A stretch of 64,000 nt of DNA, from contig JARGXX010000088.1 in assembly GCA_030374765.1 (NCBI GenBank), forward strand, positions 434,001-498,000, written 5' to 3'. This document shows, one piece after another, positions 11,252 through 55,136 of this stretch (positions are counted from its first letter, which is position 1; every line of letters begins with the position of its first letter). The position numbers were made by a program, and so were the translations under genes. Below the pieces are notes generated by a model. It had not been told where the DNA came from. It was given only the letters and a program-made list of their open reading frames with translations, and did no database searches. The stretch is from Agarophyton chilense (taxonomy: Eukaryota; Rhodophyta; Florideophyceae; Gracilariales; Gracilariaceae).

Positions 11252-12113
11252 GACAAGACTGCTTCGGAGGTCGAAGAGGAGGAGGGAAAAGTGACAAGAG
11301 GAGATTAAGTTTGCGTTGGGCTAAGCAAGATAGGCCAACCAAATGTGGAAGGGAAGAAAAGAGTACAACTTCGCAAACCACGAAGAGGGAGTGTAGATCG
11401 AAGCAAAAGCAAGGTTGCCCGCACAATGGCGGCACGGTGACCCTGGATGCCTTTAGTACAGTTGCGAAAAGAAAACGCGCTGTTCCCACAGCTAGAAATG
11501 TGGATGTATTTGACGGACATGGCATGCATGCCCTGCAGAGAGCTGAAGATGTAACGCCAATCAGAGAAAAAAACCAAATGTGTTCAAAAACTGTGGGCTT
11601 CGATTATTACTGTACTAAACCAAAAGCGGCTGTAATATGGAGAGCGTTTTAGGCGCGTTCGGGGCGGTGAACGGAAAGCTTCCGTGATCTGGGTGTACAC
11701 CAGCAACCGTCCTGGAAGGACCCGCGGGCCGCTGCCGTTGCCTCTGTCGCCAAGACGCAAGAGGTGCTCCTTTGAAAGCCGTGAATTGAAGCCCCATATG
11801 TAGATATACCTAGGAGCACGCATTTCAGTTGAAACTTCAAGGCGGCTTTAATTTGAATTTAAAACCAACCGCTTTGAGCCATCGAACACGTGTAAATGCA
11901 TCGCTTGTCGAGTCAAGTATCATTAAATTTAAACCAGTTCTTTCAGATACGGCTGTCCACACATGATGAGTGCTTCCCTTCCAGGCTGTCGTCTTTCGTT
12001 ACTAGCCCAGGATTGAATCTGCATCACGGCGAGGTCTATAACCTCAACTGCACCTCAACTTTTATACATTTCTTGGTAGCCATTCTGATAGCAGTACGGG
12101 TAACAGCGCGGCA
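11252..12113. other. Divergent promoter region
   Basis: About 860 bases between the SNF2 start (minus) and the F-box start (plus). The small open frames here have no domain features, and I see no gene. Confidence 0.5.
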
Positions 12114-12598
12114 ATGTCTGTCTCTGTTCCAACAACGAATGTGCTCGACCTTTCCGACGACGTAATCGTTATCATTCTTCAAAATCTTTCTGGTGTCGAC
12201 TTAGCGCGGTATGTCATCCGTCTATCTCGCTCTTTGCTCAGGATGTAATAACTACTAACTGTTGTACCAAACGTATTACTGATAGCGTTTCGCAAGTGTC
12301 AAAACGTCTTCGGAGACTTGCATTGCACCCATCTCTGTGGAAGAAAGCATGTTTCGAGTTGTCCAATTTCCCATCCCGTCAAAAGCTGTACTGCAACAAA
12401 TCAATGCGTTCCGACTTCTGGCGTATCTGCTTTCGTTTTTTTTATTGCAAATCCAAAGGAGGCATACGCCTTGGCTGCTTATGCCTTGGCTGCATGAAGA
12501 CTATTAAGTGCGAATCGTATGATCCTACAATCATTCCAATGTGCACATTTTTTCGCTCACGGACGCCAAAACAAACAAGCGCTTCCGCAACAGAATAG
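12114..12598 (+). CDS. F-box protein with one intron (3' end uncertain)
   Basis: The ATG at 12114 opens a frame with an F-box N half (LDLSDDVIVIILQNLSGVDLA). It then meets a GTATGT donor at 12209 and an acceptor ending TGATAG at 12285, a 77 bp intron. The continuation reads RVSQVSKRLRRLALHPSLWKK, the usual second half of an F-box (V-S-K-R-L-R-R-L-A...LW). Joining keeps the frame through codon 32. After this come Cys-rich residues (CLCLGC) and a stop at 12598. F-box proteins act as substrate receptors of SCF ubiquitin ligases through SKP1. The product would be only about 135 residues, so more 3' exons in 12600-13310 are possible, or the gene is truncated. A 109-codon open stretch ends near 13310, but I could not fix splice sites. 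Confidence 0.6.
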
Positions 12599-13648
12599 CA
12601 CGAGCACAGCCCGCAATCCCGACTACACAAATTCGTTTCGAATTGATTGTAATCTGACAGATAGGCCTTATCCGTCCCGAATGGCCTCATGTAACCAACT
12701 GACGACGACGATCGTCTGCTTCTTTGTCTCGAAGATTGGGGCATTTAATGGCATTTCTATCCCGTGTAAGAGGCACATGCTACAGGTCACTGTTCTCATA
12801 TGGACCTCAGCTCACGCCATGTCACATGTAAGCATGCATATGACAGTTTCCGGGTTATGTGTTTCTGCAATTTGGATTCAACATTCCAAGAAATTTCAAG
12901 TTGCGGGTGAATCATTCTATACCCGAATAACGCACATTCTGTCCGCCGCGCAGATGACTGTCATATCTGTTTTGCAGAACAATTATTTGCTGAAGAAGAC
13001 GTTCTTATCGGACAAGAACTATGTTGTAAAGTTACTAATCCTTCCGAGAGCTTCATAGCCAAGACTAACATCCCTACGAAGAGAAGCCGTACGGTCAACA
13101 AGCCAACCGGTGGCTGCAAAGTAGTCCAAAGTCTCTTGCCAGTGGTGAAAGTACTCGTTGACCGAAAACGTCTGTCCCATTGGATTCCAATGATTGTGAA
13201 TGCTTTCGCCGTCGTGCGAATGGTACATATTCTTACCTACTTCCGCAGTTTCTACGACGGCACATTGATGTCTTTGTTGAACGTTTTGAGATATCTTCTA
13301 ACACGCTAACGGGGTGTGTACGAATGTACGTAATGTACTAACATGACGTTTTCTGAACATAAATTACGTGGTGCAGCTGCATACAGAGATAGCCCAATTT
13401 TGGCGCCAAATATGGAATTCCCAAACTCTACATCAACCTGGATCGGAACTCGAACACATACAGTGCGGCGGAACCGTTGGGAACAATATGTATCCGTCTT
13501 CGAATGAGCCTATCGGAACACCTCAGAACGATCATCGAACCCGTATCTGTTATCAAGTTGAGAATTGTTCAGCGAACTCTCCGTTGAACTTTTCCAATCG
13601 ACGGGCTCAGAGGCAACCTCCAGGTTTTTTCTTTCCATCATTTTCGCC
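12599..13648. other. Region after the F-box exon, possible further exons
   Basis: Several open stretches lie on both strands (for example plus 12985-13310 and minus 13019-13228) but none has a recognisable domain. It may hold 3' exons of the F-box gene. The last 100 bases are the UNG 5' flank. Confidence 0.35.
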
Positions 13649-14539
13649 ATGCAGAAAAGTATCACTTCGTACTTCAAAAAAGGACCAGCCCCTGCCGTAA
13701 ATAAGAAAAAGAGGGCGAACGCTCTCAGTCCAATTCAGGCTCAGCTGCTTAAAGACGAGACGCTTCCAGCAGATGTGAAAGCCCGTATAGCCGCCAACCG
13801 TGCAGCTGCTCGGGCGAAGTTGCTGGCACGTTCCAACAAGTCGTCAACTGGAAGGATAGAGCTTGGTGCAGCATTGGAGCCCAGTTGGCGCGAGGCACTG
13901 ACCGCAACGTTGAAGGAGCCATTCCTGAAGACTCTCTCTGACTTTGTCGTGGGGGAGCGCAAGTCTCATACCGTTTACCCTCCTTCGGAAAAAATGTTCT
14001 CCGCGTTTAATCACTCGTCTTTCATCCGCACTAGAGTTGTTATTATCGGACAGGACCCATACCATGGTCCGAATCAGGCCCATGGAATGTGCTTCTCTGT
14101 ACCACCAGGAGTGTATCCACCCCCATCACTCCAGAACATTTTCAGGGAACTAGAGGCTGACATTCCGGGCTTCAAAAAGCCTAGGAGTGGCTGCTTAGAA
14201 AAGTGGGCTAACCAGGGAGTTCTTCTTCTAAATTCGGTATTGACTGTACAACGTGCTCAGCCAGCATCTCATAGGGGACGCGGCTGGGAGCGCCTAACGG
14301 ACGCTGTGGTGGACGCTCTCAATAGAAGGCCCGGTCCCGGACTTGTATTCATGTTGTGGGGAGGGTATGCAAAGAAGAAGGGAGCATCTATTGATACCAA
14401 GAGGCATTGTGTTCTGAAAGCTGTACACCCCAGTCCTTTGTCTGCAAATAGTGGTGGTTGGTTCGGAAACAAACATTTTTCAAAAGCGAATGCATTCTTG
14501 ATGAAAACAAAGCAAGATACCATCGACTGGGAGTTATGA
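13649..14539 (+). CDS. UNG: Uracil-DNA glycosylase, nuclear form with PIP box
   Basis: Excises uracil from DNA, the first step of base excision repair. 296 residues from the ATG at 13649. I chose this start because it places a PCNA-interacting peptide at the extreme N terminus (MQKSITSYFKK, matching Q-x-x-I-x-x-Y-F), as in human UNG2. A basic linker with KKKR follows. The core has the water-activating motif GQDPYHGPNQAHG (catalytic Asp near residue 136), the uracil pocket region, and the minor-groove Leu-loop motif HPSPLSANSGGW near residue 260. The length fits family 1 UNG and all active-site motifs are intact. The frame is open upstream of 13649 but would bury the PIP box. The last codons and the stop lie in the first unit of a tandem repeat (see 14516-14632). 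Confidence 0.95.
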   Translation: MQKSITSYFKKGPAPAVNKKKRANALSPIQAQLLKDETLPADVKARIAANRAAARAKLLARSNKSSTGRIELGAALEPSWREALTATLKEPFLKTLSDFVVGERKSHTVYPPSEKMFSAFNHSSFIRTRVVIIGQDPYHGPNQAHGMCFSVPPGVYPPPSLQNIFRELEADIPGFKKPRSGCLEKWANQGVLLLNSVLTVQRAQPASHRGRGWERLTDAVVDALNRRPGPGLVFMLWGGYAKKKGASIDTKRHCVLKAVHPSPLSANSGGWFGNKHFSKANAFLMKTKQDTIDWEL

Positions 14540-18729: not shown

Positions 18730-19552
18730 GTGAAGAAATTGGGCTCGGATGAAGAAGGATGGTCACGTGAAACGAAACGCGTGTTCTCATGCACTCTGGC
18801 CGGAATTCTATCTTCCGACGCAACCCTTGGACGTGGTCATTCTTCAGGGAAAACTAAGGATGTTCTGCGTCTTGTTGCTTGTATAAGTCACGAGACAGGA
18901 TTCCTGTACTCATTTCACCACCTTAGATATGTTAAAAAGCAATCAAAGCGCGATCTTCGTCTTCTTACAGCACGCTTTCATTGTCTGCAGCACAAAAAAA
19001 GTGTCTGGCAAGTATCGTGGTGGCATTACCTACTATCAATTCTCAGCGTTGGTCAGTGGTCGTCAAATTTAATCATTCGCACAAAGCGAATAGGAATGGG
19101 GTTTCTCAAACTATAGTTGAAGGGCGGCGTCTTGTTATGAAGGAGAAAATGCTCAAGCACTTTCATTCCTTTCGCGGGAAGATCGTTGGAAAGAAGCAGG
19201 AGTATTTGGATATATTACGAGAAAACTTCCCTCGCCTACCAATGGCCCTTGTTGTAGACGGAAAAAGCGTCTGCGGACATCCTCATGCTATCGAGACCCA
19301 AGCATTTAGGACTACAGAGACGCGCTCAATTCAACCGAGACCAGTTGAACAAAACCAATATTGCGTCCTGCTTCTGCGATACCACCATTTCCAACAAATG
19401 ACCATGAGGGGAGCAGGATCAGTCGTGCTCTGAACGATGAAAGAAACGGGGATTCAGAGCAATTAGAAACTGAAGTCTGTGGAGTCGGTCGGAAAATAAA
19501 TGACGTCAGGGAGCAAATCGACATCTCTGCTGAAATTGGAACGGGGTTTTTG
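18730..19552 (+). pseudogene. Degraded coding remnant between Ulp1 and transposase
   Basis: After the TAA at 18721 the same frame stays open from 18730 to 19116. Coding-like sequence then appears to move to a second frame (about 18981-19433) and a third (about 19361-19552). The third ends in an acidic stretch. I recognise no domain. It may be the C-terminal half of the protease gene with two frameshifts, or a separate passenger gene. In the pre-insertion sequence the last frame would end at a TAG made by the Gypsy target site. Confidence 0.4.
19500..19550 (+). pseudogene. First 17 codons of the MULE transposase
   Basis: ATG at 19500, directly after an in-frame TAA, opens a 17-codon frame ending at the Gypsy target site GTTTT (19546-19550). 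Removing the Gypsy element and one target copy joins it in phase to the transposase frame from 31296. This ATG is therefore the likely original start, and the Gypsy element split the gene at codon 17. Confidence 0.65.
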
Positions 19553-20113
19553 TGAGATAGCGCCGAAAGGCGTGTAAGTTTCCTAGAGGCGCGATCCGTG
19601 CGGAGTCCGTAAGCGGGGCGTGCGTGTCACACGAGGCCGGTCGGGGAACGGTGACGCGTGGAGACAAGCGCCAGCACCGGGTAGTCGTAGGGAGACTAGG
19701 CGGTTGGGAACGTCAGGCGCGATTGAGGTACGCGCGAAGAGTCCAAACGGCTTGTAAACCTGTAGATATCCCGTGCGGAGTAACGCTTCAGGTCTGCTTT
19801 AGAAACGATACTTAGACTAGGACGGTGGTGCTTACCCTTTACTGTTTGGAGGGTGGCGGGGAGCGGAGGTGCATAAGTAGTGTGCACCTCCGAGCTGCAA
19901 CCCGCATTACAGTCTGTGGTGGCGCCTGCACCCATGTGGCGGAAATATCACGGGGTGGGGGACGCCAACTACCTACAACTATGCTACGTGTTAACCTACT
20001 GTACATGTCCGTCCGGTGTGCCATCTTCGCACACGTATGCGACCAGGCCACTTGCACTCAGTCCTGACCACGCCCTTCTTACCTGACAACCCGCTCAGAT
20101 TCACTATACTACA
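19551..20113 (-). repeat. Gypsy 3' LTR (element orientation)
   Basis: 563 bp, TGTGAG...TACTACA on the plus strand. It aligns end to end with 30728-31290 with about 11 substitutions and no length change. It contains four CCGNNCGG motifs; a fifth, near 20093, is broken by one substitution (CTCAG versus CTCGG). Confidence 0.95.
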
Positions 20114-20125
20114 GACCCCCCTCCT
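20114..20125 (-). promoter_or_regulatory. Polypurine tract of the Gypsy element
   Basis: On the minus strand the bases directly before the 3' LTR read AGGAGGGGGGTC, a purine run in the position of the plus-strand primer site. This fixes the element orientation independently of the genes. Confidence 0.8.
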
Positions 20126-20394
20126 AGAGCGCGCGACGTCCTCGGAGCGCCAATATCCAAGGCGGTAGCTGGTTGAGCGCGCACCGAGCGGACACGGCGT
20201 TACGTTCGCGGACCGACACGAAACGCGCAAGAAGCGACCGGTCGCGTTATACGGGCCCGTTCGGAGATCCTCATTGTGCCACAGCCGCTCGGAAAGGCCT
20301 GTAATAGCGCAGCCGTCCGGGAGTAGACGTTATATCGCAGCCGTTCGGTAGTGCCCGTCAAATCGCGCCCGCCGGCGAGCGGTCGTCGGTGGTG

Positions 20395-20402
20395 TATTTA
20401 AG
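20395..20402 (+). promoter_or_regulatory. TATA-like element before the antisense ORF
   Basis: TATTTAAG, the only strongly AT-rich octamer in the GC-rich spacer between the polypurine tract and the antisense frame, about 110 bp before the GTG at 20507. Three CCGYNCGG-type motifs (20285, 20313 and 20341) precede it with similar surroundings (CAGCCGNTCGG). Promoter function is inference. Confidence 0.35.
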
Positions 20403-20506
20403 CACGTCTTTGTCCCGGGCGGAGTGACGGGTAGACTCCAGAGAGGACCGTTGCGGCAGTTCCGAAGAGTACGGACTCAGAGGCGGCGTGTCCGTTTGGT
20501 TCAACC

Positions 20507-22993
20507 GTGGAGGACCACAACAGCGCTGTCAACCGTGACCGGGAGGAGAACGCGGGGCGTCAGACAACTTCAGCCCTGGCAGATATACCAATTCCGCGAC
20601 GGGTAGCGGTAACCGCGCCCGCTGCAGCGCCCGTAGAGCCTCCGTTCGGTGCCCAAAGCGGGGGCTACGCGGTTTGGGATGCCCGCCAGGCGGGGGTTTC
20701 ACCGGTGTCGTCGGGAAACCCTCCCGTGCCTTCGTTTCTCCCGTTCTCTGCCTTACAGCCGCAGATAGCGGGGCGTGTTGGCGCGGGCGTGCTGATGCCT
20801 CCGTTCGGATACGGAACACCCGGAGCGGGCTTGCCCGGTGTGTTTCGAAACCCGCTACCCGGGCAGGAGTACGACCACCGCTGGCGACGACCGCAGGGCC
20901 GTAGGGGCGGGCCGACCGGGAAAAAGTCCCCGTTTTCGGTCGAGACGTTGATCTCGGGGGACGAATGGAGCGGATGCTTGGACGCGCGGAGATTCTGCGC
21001 TATACCGACGCAGCGAACGTTTTTCGAACGCACCGGCCGGAATCCGAAGCGGACGCGCCACGAGGAGTGGCGTGCGCGATGGAGGCATCTTCCGCGAATA
21101 ACCGGTCGGGAGGGGGACGAAACGGTAGGCAGCTGTGACATGCCGTTCCTCCGTTGCCCGGAGGAGTATGAGTACCAGGGTCGTATGCGCGACCTCGTTA
21201 CGCAGATGCTGTCAGATGAGAGTATTCCCGATCCGCACGGTAATCCGTTGGGGCTTGTGATGTTTTCCCCTCCGTACGACGGGCTCTATTTTTTGAACCG
21301 ACGCCGCTGGGGCGATCATGTCGCGACCGAAGCGCGGATCCGGTCGGGCTTGGGTGGTTTCATGTACGGGTGGCATAGCGTGGAGTTCTTTGACGTTTCG
21401 GTGTCCGAGCGGGAAAACTTGTACGTGAGGATTCCGGAGAATTGGCCCGACGTGGATGTGCCCCGAGATCTGTCCGTGATGACCCCGCCAGTTCTGGCCT
21501 ATTATTCCGACGATGTTCTTAGTGGGAAGTCGATAGCCGAACGGATCATGCGCGTAGCGTACGCAGAGTGGGCGGTATGCGCCCTCATGTCATTTCTTCA
21601 GGCCGTAACGGAGGGTGTGAGGGTCTTCACCAAAACGGAGGATCCGCGGCTGAACTTGTACAGAGGGGATCCTGGTCCGCGCGAGCCCCCTGGGTTGGGA
21701 AGGTTACTACCGTTACCGTACGGTCTAGTCTGCGTCACCATGCAGATGGGGATGCGAAATGTGCTCCGCGGAACGCGGTATACGCCCGAAGAAGCGAGAA
21801 GGTGGCTCTTTTTATCCGTCATGACGGACTGGAGGTCGACTCCTGGTTTCTTGTGGTTCGAACCTCGGTCGGGCGGTTTTCCCACAATGCCCATCCTCCG
21901 CGTCGGTGACAATTCCATCGTCCATCGCCTGATCCCGGAGGCGGAGAGGCTTTCATGGGAGTTCGAAGACGTCACTGATTACTTTCCGCTCGGATTCATG
22001 GACCCCCATTCGCGAAGTGGGGACGGTGACGGGCCTATTGCCGATGCGGATCTACCCCTTCCGGCGAACGAACCGTCGACGGTCCAGAGGGCCGTTACCG
22101 AAACGGGCATGCAAACGGAAAGTCCCCCGAGAACGGTAGATGCCGGTGTGCAGGTATCCGCATCGGATGGCGGCGAGGAGCGTGATGCTTTGAGAACGCT
22201 GCAGGAAGTTTGCCGGGCGAATGACGAAGAGCCCCCCGAGTCGGTCGTCGAAGCTTTAGAAATGGCGGCTGAGGTATGGGTGCCCCGCACGGATGCGTTC
22301 ACCAGCCTGTTGAGCGGGGAGATGGTCAGTACTGTCGACTTGATGTCATATGTCAGTGCTGTCTGCGTTGAGCTCCTCCAGCAGCGCATCAATGCCTTTG
22401 GAGACATGGTAACCCGACCGGGCGCCGCGACAGTGTCCCAGCTTATTGGGCGTCTGGACCTGTCGATGGGGCGTACGAACGACGCCGCCCATGAGTGGCT
22501 GCAGAGAGTCCGGGCGGCAATACAGTCCGGGTCATTCTCCGCGGCGCCTGGGGCTGCCGGCGTCCCGGCGGCTGAGGTCGCGGCGGGCGCATCGATGCCT
22601 GACCAGGCGGGGGATTCTGAGGACTCATCGACAGTGAGGTCGGCGGCTCAGGCCGCTGCGTCGCCGCGCGGGGAGGAAGAAACCGAAGGGCCCACTCCTG
22701 GCTGGGGTCCGACGGACGAGGCCTCCGTACCGACCGGGCCTCTTTCCTCTCGGAGTCGTACCGTTCGGAGGGTCGCGCATGGTACGGCGGTTAGTGCCCT
22801 CTTTCAGCCGTCTGGACGTCGTTTGGGCTCCCCGTCGCCGGTACCAGCTCCTGGAGTTGCTGCCAAGGGTGCTTTGAGAGACCAGCGAGGAGGCCGCCGC
22901 GGTGGGCGTCGTAGCGTTAGGGACTTTGCGTCCCTTCCGGTGAGTTCCCGTATCTCGAAAGCGTCTTCTCCGTCCGGAAAGCGGGGAAAGTGA
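20507..22993 (+). CDS. Antisense ORF of the Gypsy element, unknown protein (about 828 aa)
   Basis: Open without a stop from 20435 to 22993, opposite in direction to gag-pol. No ATG occurs until 20795, so the protein starts at an unusual codon (GTG 20507 is one choice), after splicing from upstream, or at Met 20795 (733 residues). The N terminus is Pro/Ala/Gly-rich. A globular middle (about 150-480) contains PEEYEYQGRMRDLVTQML, YVRIPENWPDVDVP and ARRWLFLSVMTDWR. The C-terminal third is acidic and Ala-rich, ending in a basic RG-rich tail (RGGRRGGRRSVRD). There is no zinc knuckle, protease, Zn2Cys6 or polymerase motif. The family is not recognised. The inverted copy in pol keeps the same frame open over the shared region. 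Role unknown; an element-encoded regulator is one hypothesis. Confidence 0.65.
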   Translation: MEDHNSAVNRDREENAGRQTTSALADIPIPRRVAVTAPAAAPVEPPFGAQSGGYAVWDARQAGVSPVSSGNPPVPSFLPFSALQPQIAGRVGAGVLMPPFGYGTPGAGLPGVFRNPLPGQEYDHRWRRPQGRRGGPTGKKSPFSVETLISGDEWSGCLDARRFCAIPTQRTFFERTGRNPKRTRHEEWRARWRHLPRITGREGDETVGSCDMPFLRCPEEYEYQGRMRDLVTQMLSDESIPDPHGNPLGLVMFSPPYDGLYFLNRRRWGDHVATEARIRSGLGGFMYGWHSVEFFDVSVSERENLYVRIPENWPDVDVPRDLSVMTPPVLAYYSDDVLSGKSIAERIMRVAYAEWAVCALMSFLQAVTEGVRVFTKTEDPRLNLYRGDPGPREPPGLGRLLPLPYGLVCVTMQMGMRNVLRGTRYTPEEARRWLFLSVMTDWRSTPGFLWFEPRSGGFPTMPILRVGDNSIVHRLIPEAERLSWEFEDVTDYFPLGFMDPHSRSGDGDGPIADADLPLPANEPSTVQRAVTETGMQTESPPRTVDAGVQVSASDGGEERDALRTLQEVCRANDEEPPESVVEALEMAAEVWVPRTDAFTSLLSGEMVSTVDLMSYVSAVCVELLQQRINAFGDMVTRPGAATVSQLIGRLDLSMGRTNDAAHEWLQRVRAAIQSGSFSAAPGAAGVPAAEVAAGASMPDQAGDSEDSSTVRSAAQAAASPRGEEETEGPTPGWGPTDEASVPTGPLSSRSRTVRRVAHGTAVSALFQPSGRRLGSPSPVPAPGVAAKGALRDQRGGRRGGRRSVRDFASLPVSSRISKASSPSGKRGK

Positions 22994-23709
22994 GTCGGTC
23001 TGCCTCGCCGTTGGACATGAGTAAAAGATCCTAGCATCGCCATCATGCTTCACGGCGCGGGCCACGGTGCAGCGACGCGTGCGAAATTGCGGTGCTTGCG
23101 CGCGCGTTGTTACACGTGTGCGCCACTCGCGTGCTTTACCGACCGGTGCGTTTGCAGACTTAGAGTGCACGTGCCGTTACAGTAATGCCCGGCTAGGTCG
23201 GTATCCGATTCGGTATACAGTAACGCCCATAGTGCGCCTTTGCGTCTGCTCAAAAAATCACAAGTCTTTTGGCCGTGCGGAGAGTCCAAATCGGGCATTT
23301 TCAGAGCCTGCGGCGGCTTCGTTTCCGAGATATCGGCCAAGACATTTTTCCGCGTTTTTGGTACCATAGGGGGCGGTAATTTCGGCGTCGGATTTTTTTT
23401 GATTATCTTTGCAGGTAACCGCTCGCTTTGGCGTGGGGCGCAGTGCGTATACGCTTGTTGCGGGTATGCACGCGGGCACCGCCGGCGCGGGCAGGCACCG
23501 AGTGCCGTGTTGTAATCGGTGTACGCGTGTTGCTTGGCTCCAGGCGGGCTGCGGTGCCGGAGTTACCGAGTATATCACGGTAGTGGCGTCGGGGGGTTGT
23601 TGGTCGATGTCCATGTCCGGTCGCAGGGGGGTACGGTGCCGACGGAGTCGCACACAATCGCCCCCTTCTTCCCTTTGCCGCACGGTAGTTCAGCACACGC
23701 TAGTGGTTA

Positions 23710-23890
23710 CCGATCGGAGGTGATTCCCAATGTTCGGCCGGGGTCCATGTCCAATTTTGGGATTCCCCCAGTGCTGACGGAGTCGCACGGAGTCACAACA
23801 CACGCTGGTGAGTGCCGATCGGAGGTGAACACACGCTGGTGAGTGCCGGTCGGAGGTGAACTGCAATGTTCGGCCGGAGGCCATGTCCGA
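23710..23890. repeat. Short local repeats in the Gypsy 3' spacer
   Basis: A unit of about 31 bp (CACACGCTGGTGAGTGCCG plus RTCGGAGGTGAA) occurs twice in tandem near 23800-23860. It is flanked by two copies of CAATGTTCGGCCGG. Each unit contains a CCGNTCGG motif. It lies between the ends of the antisense ORF and integrase. Confidence 0.7.
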
Positions 23891-23965
23891 TTCTGGAATG
23901 CCTCCTATCGTTCGGCTTGTATCCCCCCCCCTTCTAGATGCAACGGCCCCGCCCGGCGTACAGTT

Positions 23966-25314
23966 TCATGCCGTTCGGGATTTGCGCTTCCAATATCGGC
24001 TAATAAATTGTTGCGGAAGATTCTTGGGAGGTTCCCAAGAGTCTTCCGCAGCACTGCAACCGTACCAGCGTACGCGATAAACAAGACCGTGCGGAGGGTC
24101 GTCGGCCAGCCCATGGTCGAGGATTCGCTCGACAGTGCCAATGCTGTCCGGTTGGGTAGAGTTAGAGTTAGCCGAATGGGGTTGTGAAAGCTCCGCTCGG
24201 TGATTATTTCCAGCAGGGGGCGAGGTAGTGTCCGTCACGGGTTCCTCTGCGAACGGACCGTCCGGATCAAATGTTACCGTTCGGGCGCGTTCTGTTGTAA
24301 CCGGAACGGGTTGTATCCGAGCGGGGGCGCGAGTGACGCGGTCCATGCTGACGGTATCGTGTATCCCGTCAACATTGATCGTGACCGTGCTGTCCGTCGC
24401 GGAAATGACTTTGTAGGGCCCCGTGGTCTTTGGTAGAAGTTTCCGTGAGGTACATTCCTGCTCCTCGAGCACGCCACCGGTCGGAATTGTCGTAGGACGG
24501 TCAAGGAAGACCTCCTCGTCGCCCGCAAATGTGGGAGTTGCCCGTACGGATTTGTCGAAGTCCGCCTTGTAGCGCTGTTGCGCATTTGTGAGGCGGTTCC
24601 GAGCAGACTGGAGCGTAGCCTTGAGAAGCCTGAGTGTGTAGCGCTTCATCTGTCCCGGGGTTGGCTGCGTCGGTGTTGCTGGGTCCGTGGCGAAGCTGGG
24701 TTCGTCCACGACGACGTTCGGGGGTACGCGGGTCAGGGCCAAATCGAAAGGTGTGGTGCCGGTGCTTCGGTGTACCTGAAGGTTGTAACCGTACGTTAGC
24801 GGCTGTACATACGCGTGCCAGTTAGACTGGTGATCCGCAACGTAGTGCCGTAGGCGCTGGACGAGCGTCTTATTAAACCGTTCGGCTTGTCCGTTCGCCT
24901 GAGGGTGGTACGCCGTCGTTGTGATGTGTTTCGTACCTAACGCCCTGCAAATCTCCTCGAAGAACTTCGATACAAACTGAGGTCCGTTGTCGGTGAGCAA
25001 ATAGTTCGGAATTCCGTACGGGTAAGCTAAATTCTCTAAGAACGTCCAGGCCACCACCGGGGCAGTTGTGGACCGTAGCGGAACTGCTCTGCAGAGCTTT
25101 GTGAACCGGTCGGTGATGACCAGGATGTACTCATGTCCAGTGACTGACTTCGGAAATGGACCGACGATGTCCATTGCCACGAACTCAAGTGGCCCCGCAG
25201 CGGGAAAGAGCTTAAGCCGCTTCTGTGAGCGGTTTTGTGTGCCGCGCATTGCGGCGCACGAGCGGCAATCCCGAGCGGTTTGACAAACATCATTAGCCAT
25301 CTGCGGCCAGTGGT
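23966..25314 (-). pseudogene. Gypsy integrase with C-terminal chromodomain, 5' truncated
   Basis: On the minus strand the frame enters from the inverted duplication and becomes integrase at LRFSHHWPQM. The two Cys of the HHCC zinc domain are present (CQTARDCRSC), but the two His are lost at the junction. The catalytic core is intact: Asp in VAMDIVGPFPKS, Asp in LLTDNGPQFVS, Glu in HPQANGQAERFNKTL. The C terminus has a chromodomain (VERILDHGL...YRVRWYG...EDSWEPPKNL, ending near ISRYW), the hallmark of chromoviruses, which in other elements steers integration to chromatin marks. Without its own start and first zinc-domain half this copy cannot yield a normal integrase. Confidence 0.9.
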
Positions 25315-26015
25315 GGGAGAAACGAAGGTACAGGAGGGTTTCCCGACGACACCGGTGGAACCCCCGCCTGGCGGGCATCCCAAACCGCGTAGCCCCCGCT
25401 TTGGGCACTGAACGGAGGCTCTACGGGCGCTGCAGCGGGCGCGGTTACCGCTACCCGTCGCGGTATTGGTATATCTGCCAGGGCTGAAGTTGTCTGAAGC
25501 CCCGCGTTCTCCTCCCGGTCACGGTTGACAGCGCTGTTGTTGTCCTCCACGGTTGAACCAAACGGACACGCGGCCTCTGAGTCCGTACTCTTCGGAACTG
25601 CCGCAACGGTCCTCTCTGGAGTCTACCCGTCACTCCGCCCGGGACAAAGACGTGCTTAAATACACCACCGACGACCGCTCGCCGGCGGGCGCGATTTGAC
25701 GGGCACTACCGAACGGCTGCGATATAACGTCTACTCCCGGACGGCTGCGCTATTACAGGCCTTTCCGAGCGGCTGTGGCACAATAAGGATCTCCGAACGG
25801 GCCCGTATAACGCGACCGGTCGCTTCTTGCGCGTTTCGTGTCGGTCCGCGAACGTAACGCCGTGTCCGCTCGGTGCGCGCTCAACCAGGTACCGCCTAGG
25901 ATATTGGAGCTCCGAGGACGTCGCGCGCTCTAGGAGGGGGGTCTGTAGTATAGTGAATCCGAGCGGGTTGTCAGGTAAGAAGGGCGTGGTCAGGACTGAG
26001 TGCAAGTGGCCTGGT
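25315..26015 (-). repeat. Inverted copy of the 3' LTR end, polypurine tract and antisense-ORF start inside pol
   Basis: Reverse complement of 20042-20742 with a few percent mismatches. It replaces the RNase H C terminus, linker and integrase His residues. RNase H ends at ...DIVHRPGIKHQ and integrase resumes at LRFSHHWPQ, so about 100 pol codons appear to be missing. The right junction shares CCAGG or similar microhomology. Confidence 0.9.
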
Positions 26016-28284
26016 GTTTTATGCCCGGGCGGTGGACTATATCGAAGTCATACTCCATGAGACGGAGCCGCCAACGAGCCAGCCGTCCGGAAGCGTCCGC
26101 CAGGTTGAGTATCCACCTCAATGCGTGGTGGTCCGTACGGAGGGTGAAGCGGGCGCCCTCGAGATACGGCCGGAGGTGCAGTATTGCCCACACGACAACG
26201 AGGCATTCCCGTTCGGTTGTGGAATATTATCGCTCAGCCTTATTCAGCGAGCGGCTCCAGTATCCGATTGGCAGTAAATCACCGTCCGGTTGCTTCTGTA
26301 ATAAGACGCAACCGACTTGCTTATCGCAAGCGTCGGTATCCAGGACGTACGGCATATATTGACTTGGGATAGCCAGAATGGGGGGACGTATTAACCGTTG
26401 GCGAAGTTTCTCGAAGGCCTCGTGCTCCGTATCGGTCAGGGTCTCGAAGTTGAACGGTTTGTTCTTTTCGAGCTTGCTGTTCAACGGGGCCGCCATTCGG
26501 GCAAAGCTTTTAACAAAACGTCGGAAGACGTTGCACAGTCCCAAGAACGAACGGAGTTCGGTTTGGTTAGTGGGGGGTTTAGCCGCTCGGATAGCATCTT
26601 GGGTCCTTGTGGAGACCTGCAGCTTGCCCGGGCGGATAACGTGACCCAAATATTCGACAGTACCGCTGAAGAATTGACACTTACCCAAACGGAGAGTGAC
26701 ACCGGACGATCGGAGTGATGAAAGAATGGTCCGAACATGGTCGAAATGCTCTGAAACCGTGTGGGAGTAGATTATAACGTCATCCAGATAGACCAACGCG
26801 TATTGCCACTTGACGCGGGACAGTATGATATCCAAGGCCCGTTGAAATGTGGCGGGGGCGTTCTTCAAACCGAACGGCATTCGAACATACCTGTACAGTC
26901 CCATATGAGACGTGAACGTTGTTTTATCCCGGTCGGCTTCATCCACCTCGGTCTGCCAATAGCCGCTGTTTGCGTCCAGGGTGGAGAATATTTTTGCTTC
27001 TCCAAGAGAATCGATGCATTCGTCCATTCTCGGTAGTGGGTAAGTATCCCGAACGGTGACTACGTTTAGTCGACGGTAGTCCACACAGAAGCGTAAACTT
27101 CCGTCTTTCTTTTGAGCGAACACAATCGGACTGGCACACTCGGCCGAGGAAGGCTCAATTACACCGAGCTCCAACTGCTTGGTGACCTCCTTGCGTTTGA
27201 GTTCGCGACGCACCGGACCCGCACGGTATGGCATCTGGTATATCGGCTTTGTACCAGGTTCCAATTGGATCCTGTGTTTCGCTGCCGCGATACGGCCCAG
27301 ATGGCCGTTCCACATGTCCCGAAACGGTTTGAGGAGCTCAATGACCCTTTCTCGTTCGGACTCGAATTCGGGGGACAACTGGACCTTTGCGATCCAGTCG
27401 TCTTCTGCATCAGGCGTTGGCTCTTGTCCGTTGGGCTTCAACACGTCCGAAACGGAAATAGATGCGTCGTTGGGGCCCCCCTCCTTAGTTTCGTCGCTCC
27501 GAGACGGAAAGTCGGGTGTTATTAATGCGACGGGGGAGGGTAACGCCAGGCCGATGATTTTGCCTTTGTGAAGGCGAACCGAACGATCGGAAAAGTTAGC
27601 TACCTGAACGTAGAATGCCACGTCCGGTCGGATTTCCATTACCCCTTTAGCCAAGAGGGTTAACTCCTCTTTATGAGCAGAGCTGTGATGTCCTTGGATA
27701 GACATGAGGCCAGCGGCCCGGGAGGTTACCAATACATGAGATTCCGACATTGGTGGTATAGAAACCGGGCGGGCGACACGAATCTTGTTCGACGGAGGTT
27801 CCAGAACGGTAGCTTGGGCTGGTAGCATAGATTGCCCGGACGGGGTTGAGCTCTGCCCGGACGCGGATTGAATCGCCACGGGGGGCGAGTTGCGTAGTAC
27901 AACAATTCGTTTCGGAGGTAGTATCGCTAGAACGTACTTGTCTATGAAAGACGTGCCGAGTATGCGGCTGGCAGCGAGATTGCTGGCTACCGTAAACTGA
28001 ACCCGGACGGTCAGCGCTCCAAGCTGGACAAGGAGGGGTACGACCCCCAGTATGTCCATTCGGTTGCGAGACGCATCCGTAATGTTATCCACCGACCGGG
28101 GTTGCAAGTGCTCTCGCCAGTGGGGAGGAAGGTGCCGCTCGTGAATGAGGTTCGGACCCGCGCCAGTGTCCAGTACACCTGTAAGTGGAAACATTACCGA
28201 TCGGGAGAAGCCGACGGAGAAATTCACTTTATACTGCAAACTGTTTAACAACATTACTGGCGCGGCCGGATCGGTTTCATCCAA
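26016..28284 (-). pseudogene. Gypsy protease, reverse transcriptase and RNase H, with one stop
   Basis: Aspartic protease motif GVLDTGAGPNLIHERHL (residues about 37-53), then a complete reverse transcriptase: FAQKKDGSLRFCVDYRRLN, MPFGLKNAPATFQR, the YLDDV catalytic box, YLGHVI, and the connection region. RNase H begins at VLDTDACDKQVG. A TAA at 26227-26229 interrupts the motif usually read as AER-x-YSTTERE; the frame is otherwise open to the inverted repeat. The pol frame lies -1 relative to gag and stays open upstream through the gag stop, so it is probably expressed by -1 frameshifting rather than from its own start. The TTG at 28284 is only a nominal boundary. Confidence 0.92.
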
Positions 28285-28376
28285 AGCGTCTACAGGGCGT
28301 CGCTCCGTCAGGTCGGAGGTCGTACCCGTGTAATCGGCTTCGGTGAGGCTTTCCGGCCTAGGAGAGTCGTGCGCCT

Positions 28377-30653
28377 CTACACGCTCTCCTCGGCTTTTTC
28401 CTGTTCCATAACGGGCTGAGCTGGAGGTAGCTCGCCACTCGTAGCTCGCGGGGACTCTTTCTGTATGAGCATAACCGGCCGGGGTGAGCTAGCGCGGAAT
28501 GGGGTAGCCCGTGCAGGGTTGCCCGAGCGTACGCCAGTAGAGACCCGAGCGGAGCCATTAGTACCATCACGGTTGTAGTATCCCTCTTCACGACGGAGTT
28601 TGTAGTTTCTCTCCCGTGCGGCCAGTAAGTCTTCCCGGACGCCCGGAGGTACCATTTGACAGCAGTTGGGCTCTCGCGAGAGACAGATCCGGCACGGGCG
28701 ATTCACTAACTGACCGGGCGGTGCCGTACTAACCGAAGGCGTCTGGCCGGTACCTGGGGTCATAGCTTGTGCCGTGCGGTATGTGCCCGAGTTGGAAAAG
28801 GTCGACGACGACGGTGTTGTCGGGACCGACGTAGTGGAGCTTCCACGTCCAAAGGCGAGAATGGCTTCGCCATCTTCCGAGTCGGTGTCAAAGGACTCCG
28901 TTGGGGTCCCCACGCTCAGGACTTTCCGTGCAGAACTCCGGGGAGTGATCAGCTTCGTGCCGGGCGGTGTCTCGGTCCGGACGGACTGGCGTCTAGCCGA
29001 GCGGTGGGTATCCCCGTAGGACTCGGCGTATCGGACGAGTGCGTTGTATCCGATGTGGGGATGAGACGTGAGATGATTTCTCACCTTCGCCCGTATGGCG
29101 GAAAGCAACCCCTCTACGAAGATAGACTTCAACCTCCGGTCGGAAAAGACATTGCCGCAGCGGAGGGCCTTCGTCCACAGTTTCTGAGAGTATTCCGTTT
29201 CGGACATTCCCGAGGACTGGTGGTACAGAATAACCTCCGAGTAGGCGTCGGCAATGACTTCATCCGTGGCGTACGTAGTCAACAGAAAGTTGACGACTTC
29301 CGAGTACGTACGGAGCATTTCGCTGCGCCGCACGTCAACGGCGCCCGTTTCTCCCAAGAGGCGAGACTGGATCAACGCGTGAGCCGGTCCGGTCAGGTAG
29401 AATTGGAAGCACCAGAGTTCTGCTCCCTCGGACAGTCCGTTGTGGTTGCAGGCGGTTTTAAACCGCTGCAAGAAGTTCAGAACTGAAATAGCGTCAGCTC
29501 CGGAGAAGGAATGTCCCTTCATCTGGACATTCAACTTCTTTTGGAAGCGCGCGATTCCCCGCGCTACCTTCGAGTTGTACTTCCGACTACGGTCGTTGAG
29601 CCGGTACGTACGGTAGTCCACCACCTTGGTGAACAGTTCGTTCAGCGGCTTGATGCGCCTGGGTGCAGATTTCTCCGAACGGGAACGATACCGGTCAAAG
29701 CGTCTTCTGCGATCAGAACGATTTGAATCAGAGTCACTGTCAGTCCGGGAAACGGCATCCGAACTATCCGAGTGGTCAGAATCAGTGTCCGAATCGGAGG
29801 AGCGTCGTTTCAGTCTACGACGACGGCTCTTCCGCGCGCGACGGTGGCGATCCGAATCGGAGTTGGAATCAGCCCTACCGCCCTTCTTGCGGCGGCCTCT
29901 TCCCACGTCATCGGAGGCAGAGTCGTCTGAATCTCCGTTCGGATCATCTCGGCGTGAATTAACCGGACGGGCTGGGACCATGGGGGCACTCTGCTGTCCC
30001 CCTTCATGTGGTTCCAGGATCCGTTCGGGTTCGTGGTCTGGGGCTACGTCCGGGCGGCCCATTGAAAACTTTGGGAGGGGTGGCAACGTCGCCGTTGCCG
30101 TGTAAACTGCCGGTCGGTCTTCCTTATTTCCTTTTTTAAACCCGATCGGTGTCAACTGCTGCAGCACCTCTTCGACAGTCTCGCGCACCATCGGGGATAT
30201 GATTTCGGAGAGCAACTCAAGTAGGCGCTCGTGCAGATAACGCTCAACCCGAACGGGAACACGGGACTCGATCTCGGTCTTGACCTTATTGTGCCAATAC
30301 GGTTCAAGTTCCTTCCACAGTTCTGCAAGCGTCCGCGGAGGGCTATTCGGAGGGTCCTGTCCGATCGGAGCGGGGGACTGCTGGGCAGCCCCTGCAGCGG
30401 CCGAACTCACTGGGGGGCTTTCGTACCGTGTGGATGAGGAAGCGGAGGGCCCAGGGGGCCTCGAGGTTTTTCGGACGAGAACCGCGGGGTTCCCAAGGGG
30501 GAATTCCAGGGTAGGTGCAGTGCTGCTGGTGCTGCGGCGGCCAGCCGAAGCGGTGCCCGAAGCGGTCTGCAGGGGTGGCTCGCCGGACGGAGCCAATTCT
30601 TTTTCGACATCAACCCGTGCGGTCGAATCCACGTTTGCGTCACGGGACTGCAT
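28377..30653 (-). CDS. Gypsy Gag
   Basis: 758 residues, intact. The N-terminal half is disordered (Ser/Pro/Ala, then a long Arg/Ser/Asp repeat resembling SR domains near residues 255-335). A capsid-like helical domain follows, with FLQRFKTACNHNGLSEGAELWCFQFYLTGPAHAL and MSETEYSQKLWTKAL, as in the retrotransposon gag family. Near the C terminus a CRICLSREPNCC cluster takes the place of the usual C-x2-C-x4-H-x4-C knuckle, with no His at the expected spacing. It ends in ...EESV at 28377, overlapping the pol frame. An A-rich run (GGAAAAAG) about 18 bases before the stop could be the slip site. Confidence 0.88.
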   Translation of the reverse strand: MQSRDANVDSTARVDVEKELAPSGEPPLQTASGTASAGRRSTSSTAPTLEFPLGNPAVLVRKTSRPPGPSASSSTRYESPPVSSAAAGAAQQSPAPIGQDPPNSPPRTLAELWKELEPYWHNKVKTEIESRVPVRVERYLHERLLELLSEIISPMVRETVEEVLQQLTPIGFKKGNKEDRPAVYTATATLPPLPKFSMGRPDVAPDHEPERILEPHEGGQQSAPMVPARPVNSRRDDPNGDSDDSASDDVGRGRRKKGGRADSNSDSDRHRRARKSRRRRLKRRSSDSDTDSDHSDSSDAVSRTDSDSDSNRSDRRRRFDRYRSRSEKSAPRRIKPLNELFTKVVDYRTYRLNDRSRKYNSKVARGIARFQKKLNVQMKGHSFSGADAISVLNFLQRFKTACNHNGLSEGAELWCFQFYLTGPAHALIQSRLLGETGAVDVRRSEMLRTYSEVVNFLLTTYATDEVIADAYSEVILYHQSSGMSETEYSQKLWTKALRCGNVFSDRRLKSIFVEGLLSAIRAKVRNHLTSHPHIGYNALVRYAESYGDTHRSARRQSVRTETPPGTKLITPRSSARKVLSVGTPTESFDTDSEDGEAILAFGRGSSTTSVPTTPSSSTFSNSGTYRTAQAMTPGTGQTPSVSTAPPGQLVNRPCRICLSREPNCCQMVPPGVREDLLAARERNYKLRREEGYYNRDGTNGSARVSTGVRSGNPARATPFRASSPRPVMLIQKESPRATSGELPPAQPVMEQEKAEESV

Positions 30654-30727
30654 CGCGTGACTCCTTTTCCAGATCTGATCTAACCCGTTCGGTAAACACG
30701 AATCCCACTTCTAAGTCGGGAGACAAA
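30654..30727 (-). other. Gypsy 5' leader with possible primer-binding site
   Basis: 74 bases between the 5' LTR and the gag start. In element orientation TGGGATTCGTG begins about 20 nt after the LTR, which could pair with a tRNA 3' end ...CACGAATCCCA. The offset from the LTR is larger than usual, so this is tentative. Confidence 0.35.
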
Positions 30728-31290
30728 TGTGAGATAGCGCCGAAAGGCGTGTAAGTTTCCTAGAGGCGCGATCCGTGCGGAGTCCGTAAGCGGGGCGTGC
30801 GTGTCACACGAGGCCGGTCGGGGAACGGTGACGCGTGGAGACGAGCGCCAGCACCAGGCGGTCGTAGGGAGACTAGGCGGTTGGGAACGTAAGGCGCGAT
30901 CGAGGTACGCGCGAAGAGTCCAAACGGCTTGTAAACCTGTAGATATCCCGTGCGGAGTAACGCTTCAGGTCTGCTTTAGAAACGATACTTAGACTAGGAC
31001 GGTGGTGCTTACCCTTTACTGTTTGGAGGGTGGCGGGGAGCGGAGGTGCATAAGTAGTGTGCACCTCCGAGCTGCAACCCGCATTACAGTCCGTGGTGGC
31101 GCCTGCACCCACGTGGCGGAAATATCACGGGGTGGGGGACGCCAACTACCTACAAGTATGCTACGTGTTAACCTACTGTACATGTCCGTCCGGTGTGCCA
31201 TCTTCGCACACGTGTGCGACCAGGCCACTTGCACTCAGTCCTGACCACGCCCTTCTTACCTGACAACCCGCTCGGATTCACTATACTACA
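30728..31290 (-). repeat. Gypsy 5' LTR (element orientation)
   Basis: 563 bp partner of 19551-20113, with the same termini and five CCGNNCGG motifs. It is followed by the target duplication GTTTT at 31291-31295. It should drive gag-pol transcription leftwards. Confidence 0.95.
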
Positions 31291-34151
31291 GTTTTAGCCA
31301 GGAAGACATTTCGAAAATAGCGAATGTAGATGAAAGGAAATCCGATTGTAAACCAAATTCCGTCCTGGCGTTCAACTCTCAAGAACGCCATAATCTGTTT
31401 TCTGCGCTTTCTGGTGGCAAAGAGATCGACGACTTAATGATGCATGGGCACACAGAAGGGGAAGGTAATGAAAACGCTTCAGAACTCATCGAACGGTTTT
31501 GGTTCCTTGATGAAAACAAAGAGCTTCCAGATGAGCTCGTGACTCTTTCAAAAGACAAAGTAAACCCAGAGCGTAACGTTAGCCACTGCTCCGAAGCAGT
31601 GCAGGATTGTGCGGTGAAGTACTGTGAGGAAGAGAAGTTGGATGTCCATGAAGTTTTTAAGGCGGCTGTTATCTCGTTTTTTAAAAGCTTGGAAATCATC
31701 GCTCCTGGTCAGGATGTTTTTAAAGAGGTGCGGTACATTTCTGATTGTCTGGGCTATAGACTGAAGTGTAGGACTTCTATGTTTGTGGGCGAGAAGTCCG
31801 TACAGGTGGATGCTAAAAGTGGAAGTGGTAAAGATACCCGTGTGCTCAAGAAATGTATCTTGAAATGCCGGAAAGGCTACGGAAAGCACCTCTGCAACAT
31901 TTCATTGACGATGAAGACTTTGGTTCCAGAAAAAGAAGAGGATGGTAGATGCTATGCTGGGGACTTTCGAGAAGCAAAGCACAATCATATCCCTTTAAAG
32001 GAGAATGGCGGGATGAGATACCTATCGCCAAAAATGCGCTCCGAAGCCTTGCAAATGACCAGCACTCTTCACATGAGCCTAGGAGACACTGTCAGGTTTC
32101 TGTCGGACAAGTATGGTGTTCCCATAAATGTGCGGTCTGTGAAAAATATGGTTGGGTATAATCGCGCGATCAGAAACCCGAAGGATCTTGAAAGCACGAG
32201 GCTGCTAGAGACTTTGATGTCACTGCATGAGAAAGACGTGCAGAACAAATTTGCGTTTCCTTGCGATACACACGGTCGAATGACCTCCGCCTGTTGGGCT
32301 ATTAAAGAATGGATCGAGGATTACAGAAGATGCGGGGTGGTGTCTGGAGTATCTGTCGATTGTAAGGCAATTGCCAATCGTTATGGATTTCCAGCTCTCA
32401 CAATTAATGGAAGAGCAAACGACGGGTTCACTCTTACATTTTTTATGGCTTTCACGAGTGGAGAAACTAAGGCAGACTTCGTTGGCACTCTTTCGCGGTT
32501 CAAGTCGATGATTCCCATCTCACAATCTCTGACAACAATGGACCAATGCGTGGCCTGCATCGCAGCCACTGAAAAAGTGTTCGAGAACTCATTCATATTG
32601 TTAGATGAATGGCATCTTAACAAAAACCAAATGAAGATTGTTACATCGTGGTGTGCAACGATTGGGCGTCCGCAATGGTGCGATGAAATGAGTAGGGACC
32701 TATTCAATATTAGAAGATTCCAGTACCTTCCTGCTTTCACAAAACGCCGCTCAGAATTCCAAACCAAGTACTTCTAGGGCTTTACGGAGAAGCTTCCAAA
32801 TTGGTACGCATATCTGTACGTTCATAGACCACAGCTGATTGATGCTTGCTTTAGAAACGCTGCTGTTCTACGCCTGTACCTTTTCCAAGGAACAGGTTAC
32901 ACTGAAGCATCTAATGCTGGCTTTAGAGCCTACATATTGGCAAAGAAACTACCCTTTAGTGCTATTCCGAGGCTAAAATGGCTGACATTGAAAAGAGCGG
33001 CGGAGCGAAATGAGTCTCGCCTACGCTCCATGACCCCGTCGAGCTTTCGCTTAAGATCCATCCGAGACTGCCAGTTGCCACTACCCATCACAATTGTTGA
33101 CGGTCTGGTAGCAGACTACACTAGCTACTGCCTCACGAAGTTTAAGGGAATTAGCGTGGTTTCCTCGAAGAACAACGTGGTAACAAAGGCATCCGTTCTA
33201 TCTCCGGCCGATGCATATTGGCCAAAGCTCACCAACCAGGATCGCAACAAAAAAGATATGGTTGCCGTGTTTGACCTCACGTGGAGCGTTTATTTGCTCC
33301 ATAAGGTGGAGTCCCCTTCCCCACGAGCACAAAGAACTTTGAAAGTTCTTTTCGCTCGAATGGAAGTCGAGAGCATGGAAGGTGAAGACAGCGAATTATT
33401 CGCGAGGTGTGCCTGCCAGAAAACCCAGTCAATGGGATTTCCCTGTCGTCACATCATGAAATGTGCAATGGCGTATGGGGACATGGCTGAACTGAACCCC
33501 ATCCTCAGGGAGGTTCTTGACGATTACATTGAACTCGAAAGCCTCTTCGACCCCTATTGGAAGGCCGGCTCACAAGACTTTGACTATCTCCGCGTCTGCA
33601 ATCTCCGAAAGCAAGCTCTTGTTCTTGACATGGTCAGTTTGAAAGGTCACTTACAGTCGGAAGTGAGTGAAGATTCCAAATTTACACTTCAACAAATCGA
33701 CCCATTCATGAGGACTTGTTCTGAGATCGAGGTTGGAACCTGCATCAAATGGTCAGATTCTCAAGCTCTCTTTGATCAAATCAAACGAGTTACTTCGGGC
33801 ATGGGCCCTTACGCCGTGGATCAATTTCAGAAGGTGTTGAGAATAACGATGGAGAGCTATAACCGAGGGCGACTTCCTTCACTTTCCGTCTACAACACAT
33901 TCAAAGTGGGAAAGAATCTTCATTCACAGAAAGAATTCATTAGTTGGGAGAATAGTTCAGTTTCATTTATTAAGCCGCCAAACAAAGCCAACGTGAATAT
34001 TGTCAAGAGAAAGAAGAGTTACACGGAACGTTTCAAGTCGAAGAAAGCAAAGGTGAAAGGTTTTGGCGATGAAAAGTTTGAATGTTCACAAGAAGAGCAG
34101 TCTCAAAGACAAAAGGGATCTCAGGGTCAGCAAAATTCGTCTTATGTATAG
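31291..34151 (+). pseudogene. MULE transposase (FAR1-like N terminus, DDE core, SWIM finger), split and with one stop
   Basis: One frame runs from the Gypsy target site to 34151, broken only by TAG at 32775-32777 (after RSEFQTKYF). The N-terminal part has a FAR1/WRKY-GCM1-like zinc region ending DFREAKHNHIPL. The DDE core begins GVSVDCKAIANRYGFPALT (first Asp), with a second Asp in LTTMDQCVACIAA and the C/W-H motif region LLDEWHLNKNQ. After the TAG comes a SWIM finger, CACQKTQSMGFPCRHIMKC, and a basic C terminus. With its 17-codon start at 19500 the intact protein would be about 970 residues, usual for MULE transposases. The Gypsy insertion and the TAG inactivate it. Confidence 0.88.
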
Positions 34152-52839: not shown

Positions 52840-53020
52840 GTTTAGAGCGTGTCAGAGGCGGTCCACGAGCCATAGTTGAGCAATAGATTGTTTAAAGGGT
52901 ATACTTTTGAAACGTTTTGCACTCGGTGGTTTTTATTTGGTGTAAAATGTGCTCTACAGTATATGAAATGCCTTTTTTTGGCGCGGTTTTTGTCAAGGGC
53001 TATATTTTTAAAACGCACTG
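52840..53020 (-). repeat. Tc1/mariner-like terminal segment, inverted copy
   Basis: Reverse complement of the 44244-44430 segment (shared GAGCGTGTCAGAGGCG, TTTGGTGTAAAATGT, AAGGGCTATA), ending AAAACGCACTG followed by TA. Confidence 0.6.
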
Positions 53021-53022
53021 TA

Positions 53023-54549: not shown

Positions 54550-54673
54550 TCACAGACGCGCGTCGCACGTGGCGCGCAGTGTGCGTCCGTCGCCGCCTCC
54601 ACCGCCGCCGCCACTATGCGGCTGGTCGCCGCCTCCTCGACGCGCCACACCGTCCGCCGTCGTGGTTGCGCCC

Positions 54674-54706
<33 letters not shown>

Positions 54707-55110: not shown

Positions 55111-55136
55111 AGCACAGCCGACAGCGACGTGAGGCG

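Follow-up and report, generated by a model that had tools for sequence, protein, structure and literature searches.

Why should a retrotransposon carry the same short palindrome almost a hundred times over, in its long terminal repeats (LTRs), its spacers and the midst of its genes? The question is raised by a Ty3/Gypsy element, with minus-strand sense and with LTRs, reverse transcriptase (RT), integrase and chromodomain, that occupies positions 19551-31290 of the window (the whole stretch of 64,000 nucleotides of Agarophyton chilense DNA that was analysed). An initial annotation had counted about 84 occurrences of CCGNNCGG across this element; the amplification is real and the number higher, there being 97 copies of CCGNNCGG and 34 of CCGNNNCGG dispersed through 19551..31290, in the LTRs, the spacers and all four ORFs.

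The element and its antisense reading frame

The LTRs (3′ LTR, 19551..20113; 5′ LTR, 30728..31290; both minus strand) are each 563 bp long, have TG...CA ends and differ at 11 of 563 positions; they contain four and five copies of CCGNNCGG, respectively, just as had been annotated. Outside them the target-site duplication GTTTT can be read at 19546..19550 and 31291..31295, a site without a CC-N-GG palindrome. On the minus strand there are a gag-like ORF of 758 codons (28377..30653; 20 CCGNNCGG), named by its position and without a Pfam match; a frame for protease, RT and the start of RNase H (26227..28284; 13 CCGNNCGG; Pfam RVP 1.6e-5, RVT_1 1.1e-30, RT_RNaseH_2 5.3e-18); and one for the integrase core and chromodomain (23966..25408; rve 1.3e-13, Chromo 8.6e-9). 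The order of protease, RT, RNase H and integrase, the chromodomain, the TG...CA termini and the target duplication place the element among the Ty3/Gypsy chromoviruses, an assignment made from domain order and termini, without an RT tree, and in a copy whose pol is interrupted. The interruption is a 701-nt inverted duplicate (25315..26015, minus strand; 688/701 identical) of 20042-20742, comprising the LTR end and the start of ORF2, which lies in pol, after the part for RNase H and before that for integrase, and includes the first codons of the integrase frame as listed. It looks like a rearrangement of the window copy: several other copies have a continuous longer pol frame, and open frames are found in several copies.

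ORF2, an antisense accessory ORF of 828 codons (20507..22993, plus strand; 18 CCGNNCGG), lies between integrase and the 3′ LTR. It has no ATG at its start in the window copy, and has one at 13 other loci read. The 393 bp before it (20114..20506, plus strand; six CCGNNCGG) form a leader or promoter region, in which a polypurine stretch (minus strand) adjoins the 3′ LTR and a TATA-like TATTTAAG is located at 20395. A TATA-like box is found at -112 in all nine other copies of family A (to which the window element belongs) that were read, and at -115 in three of four loci of the related subfamily A′. Upstream of it are four copies of CCGNNCGG at 28-bp intervals (20257, 20285, 20313 and 20341), corresponding to -250, -222, -194 and -166; all four are present in the window and in four of the nine other A copies, some being missing in the rest.

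As to the neighbourhood, two ORFs that adjoin the element (31437-34151) gave weak matches, below Pfam cut-offs, to MULE transposase and the SWIM zinc finger. Genes for an SNF2/RING helicase and a uracil-DNA glycosylase lie close together and a Ku-like gene further off (7535-14539, 56120-58510), the start of the Ku-like ORF being overlapped by a repetitive Arg/Ala/Lys/Ser-rich frame (55480-56352).

An array far in excess of chance

The rest of the window contains four copies of CCGNNCGG (13087, 16481, 49972 and 57680), in keeping with the annotation's impression of isolated cases there. Nine of its eleven example positions within the element are exact (26210 should be 26209, and there is no site at 20811, the nearest being at 20801). 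Chance expectation, first put at 3-6, is somewhat higher, at 7.4 from base composition and 9.8 (sd 3.2, maximum 19) when the element is dinucleotide-shuffled 200 times, which still leaves the observed 97 far beyond it. Among the spacings of CCG-Nk-CGG, only k = 2 and k = 3 are enriched (CCGNNNCGG, 34 vs 9.9 in shuffles), those with k = 0, 1 and 4-8 being at chance (6-14). The excess is also present within each ORF when compared with codon-preserving shuffles (500 each): 20 vs 4.3 in gag, 13 vs 2.8 in pol, 12 vs 2.5 in the integrase frame and 18 vs 3.7 in ORF2, the shuffle maxima (10, 8, 8 and 10, respectively) never reaching the observed counts; and in every ORF CCGNNCGG occupies all three reading frames. 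The view that codon bias is not the cause is thus upheld in all four.

Over the genome (79.76 Mb in 135 contigs) there are 16,413 copies of CCGNNCGG, or 0.206 per kb, vs 8.3 per kb in the element, a density about 40 times greater; as a crude control, the reversed pattern of CCGN2CGG occurs 13,410 times. Compartments of the element have 6-19 copies per kb, with the exception of a 92-bp spacer that has none. There are three short tandem arrays only. No helical phasing was seen at 10.2-10.6 bp, and a 14-bp periodicity in site positions (p ~0.003) probably comes from the 28-bp spacings. A second dispersed palindrome, CAGNNCTG, which is enriched in family A, is found 19 times in the element (19789-31236) and nine times elsewhere in the window, and is poorly kept in A′ (18/53).

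Other copies of the element, and the fate of their sites

The array is not peculiar to the window copy. All 53 loci of the A/A′ set (L001-L053, two of which are the window element and some of which share one copy) are rich in the motif, with 14-51 CCGNNCGG per locus of 3.4-5.5 kb; beyond this set, L054 has 14, and L055-L060 have 1-4 each. Might the motif be a target for integration? Seventeen A/A′ insertion edges were examined, at the ORF2-side LTR end and on one side each, the LTR end being readable at 13 and unrecognisable at four; outside the 13 readable edges there is no CCGNNCGG in 7.08 kb. The array thus ends sharply where the element ends, these insertions were not targeted to the motif, and a role as integrase target site is rejected at the edges examined.

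Between A and A′, at 82-89% DNA identity, 180 of 297 motif sites have been kept vs 311 of the 830 that 20 control patterns provide (12 loci from seven copies; the counts are not independent). Among the 15 loci of more than 90% identity (including L048, at 90.2%), retention is equal, at 420/508 for the motif and 870/1062 for the controls. (Of 29 loci, 28 could be aligned for this analysis, the other being L063.) Between A and A′, dN/dS is 0.21-0.42 for ORF2 and 0.23-0.26 for pol, so that ORF2 is under purifying selection between the subfamilies, and among A copies the values are 0.56-0.92 and 0.55-0.73, respectively. Retention and dN/dS together fit selection on an active lineage, with near-neutral decay after insertion. 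In residues 1-300 of ORF2, dS between A and A′ is about 0.5, twice the 0.25 of pol, for which recombination or a mosaic origin is a possible explanation.

Related families have palindromes of their own

When RT was used as a query, families B, C and D were retrieved, together with numerous RT matches at 48-50% identity. These relatives have other palindromes, which the initial annotation had not noticed. An unbiased dyad scan (spaced trinucleotide pairs with gaps of 0-10, compared with shuffles, and with no prior choice of motif) picked out CCGN2CGG in family A (z 36.8), ACCN4GGT and ACCN5GGT in L055/L057 (z 19-24), CCANTGG (z 14-16) and CCANNTGG (z 12-13) in L056/L058, ACCN5GGT in L060 (z 18), CCTNNAGG in L061 (z 13), CCTNAGG, TCCNNNGGA and ACCNNNGGT in L062 (z 8-9) and CCGNNCGG in L063 and L054 (z ~11); in the window's left flank nothing exceeded 5.4. 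The arrays of families C and D are strong (z 18-24). The amplified words are CCGN2-3CGG in A, A′, L054 and L063, CCAN1-2TGG in B/F, ACCN4-6GGT in C and D, and CCTN1-2AGG/TCCN3GGA in L061/L062, and the palindromes of all sampled families have a common core, CC-N(3-6)-GG. (Families B/F, C, D and L061-L063 are represented by one to four loci each.) A CGG half-site as the common target is not borne out, since across the sampled families the half-site is CC/GG with varying neighbours.

How private are these words? CCGN2CGG is high in A, A′ (the ORF2 row for which comprises seven loci, L013, L015-L018, L025 and L029), L054 and L063; elsewhere its counts equal or approach expectation (B, 10 vs 7; C, 7 vs 4; D, 1 vs 1; L061, 2 vs 2; L062, 5 vs 2). 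Other words are less confined: B also has ACCN4GGT (19 vs 4); C has CCAN2TGG (19 vs 4), CCTN2AGG (11 vs 2) and CCGN3CGG (13 vs 4); D has CCTN2AGG (7 vs 1); L061 has CCAN1TGG (10 vs 1) and ACCN4GGT (6 vs 1); and ACCN5GGT is counted 51 times vs 15 over nine A pol loci, which is few for nine copies. B/F, C, D and L061/L062 thus have words that differ in rank and partly overlap, and that are not wholly private. No family word is enriched in 46.65 kb of the window's flanks (53001-58600 being left out). Genome-wide, ACCN5GGT occurs 36,542 times vs 21,482 for its reversed pattern (again a crude control). It may be mentioned that a family-C element at C1:118449-137854 is visible from motif positions, a spacing series of ACCN5GGT being nearly repeated about 19 kb apart, which suggests an LTR pair.

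The arrays differ despite homology of the sequences that carry them, pol of A being 0.44-0.54 identical in amino acids to those of B, F, C and D. In aligned pol of A and B (amino-acid identity 0.52), the A stretch has 18 A-type sites, of which six overlap a B-type match in B, and in the B stretch there are 40 matches to B-type patterns (which can overlap one another) and one A-type site. Amino-acid identity under A sites is 0.39-0.45 vs 0.44-0.54 overall (four comparisons), and under B sites 0.50-0.53 vs 0.47 overall (two comparisons). That there are family-specific palindromes in double-stranded DNA under selection is well supported for family A, and supported, from fewer loci, for the others.

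ORF2 as a candidate reader

If the palindromes are read by a protein of the element, which might it be? The initial annotation had supposed that the element might carry a regulator, and the conserved antisense ORF2 could indeed encode one. Protein searches gave two relatives among 7990 candidates scored, one of them from Gracilariopsis chorda (41% identical), and an alignment-based second search (again with 7990 candidates scored) gave the same two; no relatives were found in viral contigs. ORF2 has no Pfam match at E up to 1, nor was one found for four of its relatives, and no recognised DNA-binding domain was found in ORF2 with Pfam or a PDB sequence search, the latter giving two chance-level matches. 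Structure predictions for the whole protein and its core had mean pLDDT of 31 and 36 and no usable fold. Five ORF2 relatives have a common core with many invariant residues.

Within the genome (where counts are lower bounds, 55 of 1231 candidates having been scored) there are at least ten full-length ORF2 matches, including that in the window, and at least two more in two pieces. The A′ subfamily is at about 65-82% identity, with at least six copies lacking residues 300-546, and at least 16 distant matches are at 32-38%. At least six further matches span residues 712-828 only (C111:1284656, C97:243747, C10:383227, C10:395244, C28:514190 and C121:824273), which suggests a deletion form that has itself been multiplied. 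Both these partial copies and those without the middle part fit a protein that acts in trans. In one copy (C4) the middle of ORF2 is replaced by unrelated sequence with one motif in 873 bp, so a domain swap is ruled out there.

ORF2 is present in three of the array-bearing clades, A, B/F and L061/L062. In L061 and L062 it is likewise antisense to integrase frames, with dN/dS of 0.43 between the two, and these frames contain few family words (2-6 each). In B/F a relative was found of which the C-terminal half could be recognized; it occupies the corresponding antisense position, contains a stop, and matches that of L061 at E 2.8e-26 and the profile at E 3e-4 only; in all seven close copies it lies 2.9-3.4 kb from RT on the opposite strand. 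In family C, reading of 3.5 kb past integrase in one copy revealed no relative of ORF2; its place is taken by an unrelated 319-codon ORF (L064:1300-2259), present in four copies, the other three being 92% identical, and free of stops in three of the four. The association of array and ORF2 therefore holds in three clades and fails in one (C), as far as seen. On these comparisons of sequence, we regard it as an even question whether ORF2 is the reader of the family palindromes.

What might the palindromes be for?

From the arrays we infer, as seems natural, that some protein reads the palindromes. In the scheme that we propose, they would be sites at which a dimeric protein binds double-stranded DNA, selection would have multiplied them along the element, and related Gypsy families would have their own versions of the site, built on the CC-N(3-6)-GG core with different neighbours and spacing. 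The reader would be encoded by the elements themselves, ORF2 being the leading candidate, and would act in trans, coating the DNA of the family that encodes it, its own promoter included; coating would keep the element transcribed or shield it from silencing, in the manner of VANC and VANDAL. That an element-encoded dimeric protein, with ORF2 foremost, binds the family palindromes and so keeps the elements active seems to us to fall just short of an even chance. Weighing against it are the strong arrays of family C, where no relative of ORF2 was seen in the sequence read, the overlap of words between families, the want of a recognized DNA-binding domain in ORF2 and the scarcity of family words in the ORF2 frames of L061 and L062; so too, among copies of more than 90% identity, are a retention of motif sites no better than that of controls and the higher dN/dS of ORF2. 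The bolder formulation, in which a fast-evolving antisense ORF2 reads the family palindrome, each family having rewritten itself from end to end, genes and all, in a word of its own, with switches of specificity between families and several such systems in one genome on one CC...GG core, is more tentative. By analogy, the outcome might be anti-silencing rather than plain activation, though we think this rather unlikely.

Could the array be a by-product of mutation or composition (GC or CpG bias, codon bias, tandem duplication, or assembly error)? The element is indeed richer in GC than its flanks (0.587 vs 0.46-0.47), and a few sites are in short 28- and 31-bp repeats. Against this, just two spacings are enriched, the motifs of other families lack CpG, and the array is present in copies on many contigs; codon shuffles do not reproduce the excess, and they and the dinucleotide shuffles rule out codon bias, GC content and chance. 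Such an origin is scarcely credible. The palindromic form and flexible spacer length might rather suggest hairpins in RNA or single strands, acting as packaging or dimerization signals, and it is in favour of pairing that CAGNNCTG is enriched in A (19 sites), the mixed CCG/CAG forms occurring only 3 and 4 times. But the spacer of the main motif is only two bases, the flanks of sites are complementary in 0.19-0.33 of cases vs 0.26 expected, G-U wobble variants show no asymmetry between strands (5 vs 7, 6 vs 5 and 10 vs 10), and enrichment is limited to particular base pairs rather than extending to any pair. The lack of flanking complementarity and of wobble asymmetry indicates double-stranded DNA sites and rules out RNA hairpins on these tests; the hairpin reading as a whole is very improbable.

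Among readings that involve a protein at double-stranded sites, one or more host-encoded factors (activators or chromatin proteins) might be exploited, the elements of each family having adapted to particular members, or particular dimer spacings, of a single family of host proteins that recognizes CC/GG half-sites. This would agree with the finding that every sampled family, even C, where ORF2 was not found, has the CC...GG core with neighbours and spacing that vary, and with the partial overlap of family words. Against it, the flanks are enriched for no motif, a host factor has no obvious need of 97 sites across coding sequence, and a reader co-evolving with the element would better explain why the words differ between families; a host reader seems improbable. 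The reader might instead be another protein of the element, such as Gag or the integrase with its chromodomain, which would tag the DNA of the element itself for packaging, nuclear handling or nesting. Pol is indeed common to B, C and D, and ORF2 was not found in C. The motif-free insertion edges and the lack of an RNA hairpin signal speak against this, and no Gag or integrase is known to us to make use of dispersed double-stranded palindromes; we consider this less probable still than a host factor.

Implications and comparison with known systems

What would follow if an element-encoded reader, with ORF2 as first candidate, were confirmed? The same logic of self-recognition would be present several times over in LTR retrotransposons, making it a recurrent strategy of transposons. 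The antisense accessory ORFs of LTR elements, the functions of which are called unknown (PMC7264820), would gain a first testable role. Candidate DNA-binding proteins whose target words have diverged would be available as a natural series, and coding sequence would have been re-tooled into a binding platform with its protein retained. We found no report of such private target-site arrays in LTR retrotransposons in the open-licence literature.

Everted CGG sites are the targets of Zn2Cys6 factors, a likeness noticed at the outset. It holds for the CCG-N-CGG geometry of the family-A site; it does not extend to an element-encoded factor of this class, neither the four ORFs of the element nor four relatives of ORF2 having yielded a zinc-cluster domain, nor to the other families, whose sites are not CGG-based. 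To our knowledge, VANDAL of Arabidopsis is the only known transposon whose own protein reads private target sites that have been amplified in it. VANDAL is a Mutator-like DNA transposon, unlike the LTR retrotransposon described here.

In its architecture, the element resembles plant LTR elements with an aORF-3R (Grande gene23, RIRE2 and Retand TRP28), in which, as also in our B/F copies, a long antisense ORF lies between pol and the 3′ LTR (PMC7264820, PMC11963269). The Grande antisense ORF is described as having its own promoter, and a nuclear or DNA-binding role is suggested for aORF-3R, its purpose being called unknown (PMC7264820, PMC11963269). Unlike Retand, a non-chromovirus, the element here has a chromodomain, and ORF2 lacks TRP28 (PF04195); and family-specific tandem repeats are reported in aORF-3R elements, whereas ours has dispersed palindromes (PMC7264820, PMC11963269).

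The closest parallel, one also named in the initial annotation, is with VANC, for which motif binding and demethylation have been demonstrated in Arabidopsis (PMC5735166, PMC10398659). VANC has DUF1985/DUF287, whereas no Pfam match was found for ORF2 or four of its relatives. VANDAL motifs are described there as being in the same orientation, mainly non-coding and often in tandem repeats, and those of the present element are palindromes in coding and non-coding sequence, mostly without tandem repeats (PMC5735166, PMC10398659). With these reservations, the two systems have in common (PMC5735166, PMC10398659) a motif that is dense in one transposon family and rare elsewhere, CCGNNCGG being confined, in the families sampled, to A and those closest to it; related families that have different motifs, cleanly so here for CCGN2CGG and with partial overlap for other words; and a reader encoded by the element and acting in trans, which is proven for VANC and for which ORF2 is the candidate here.
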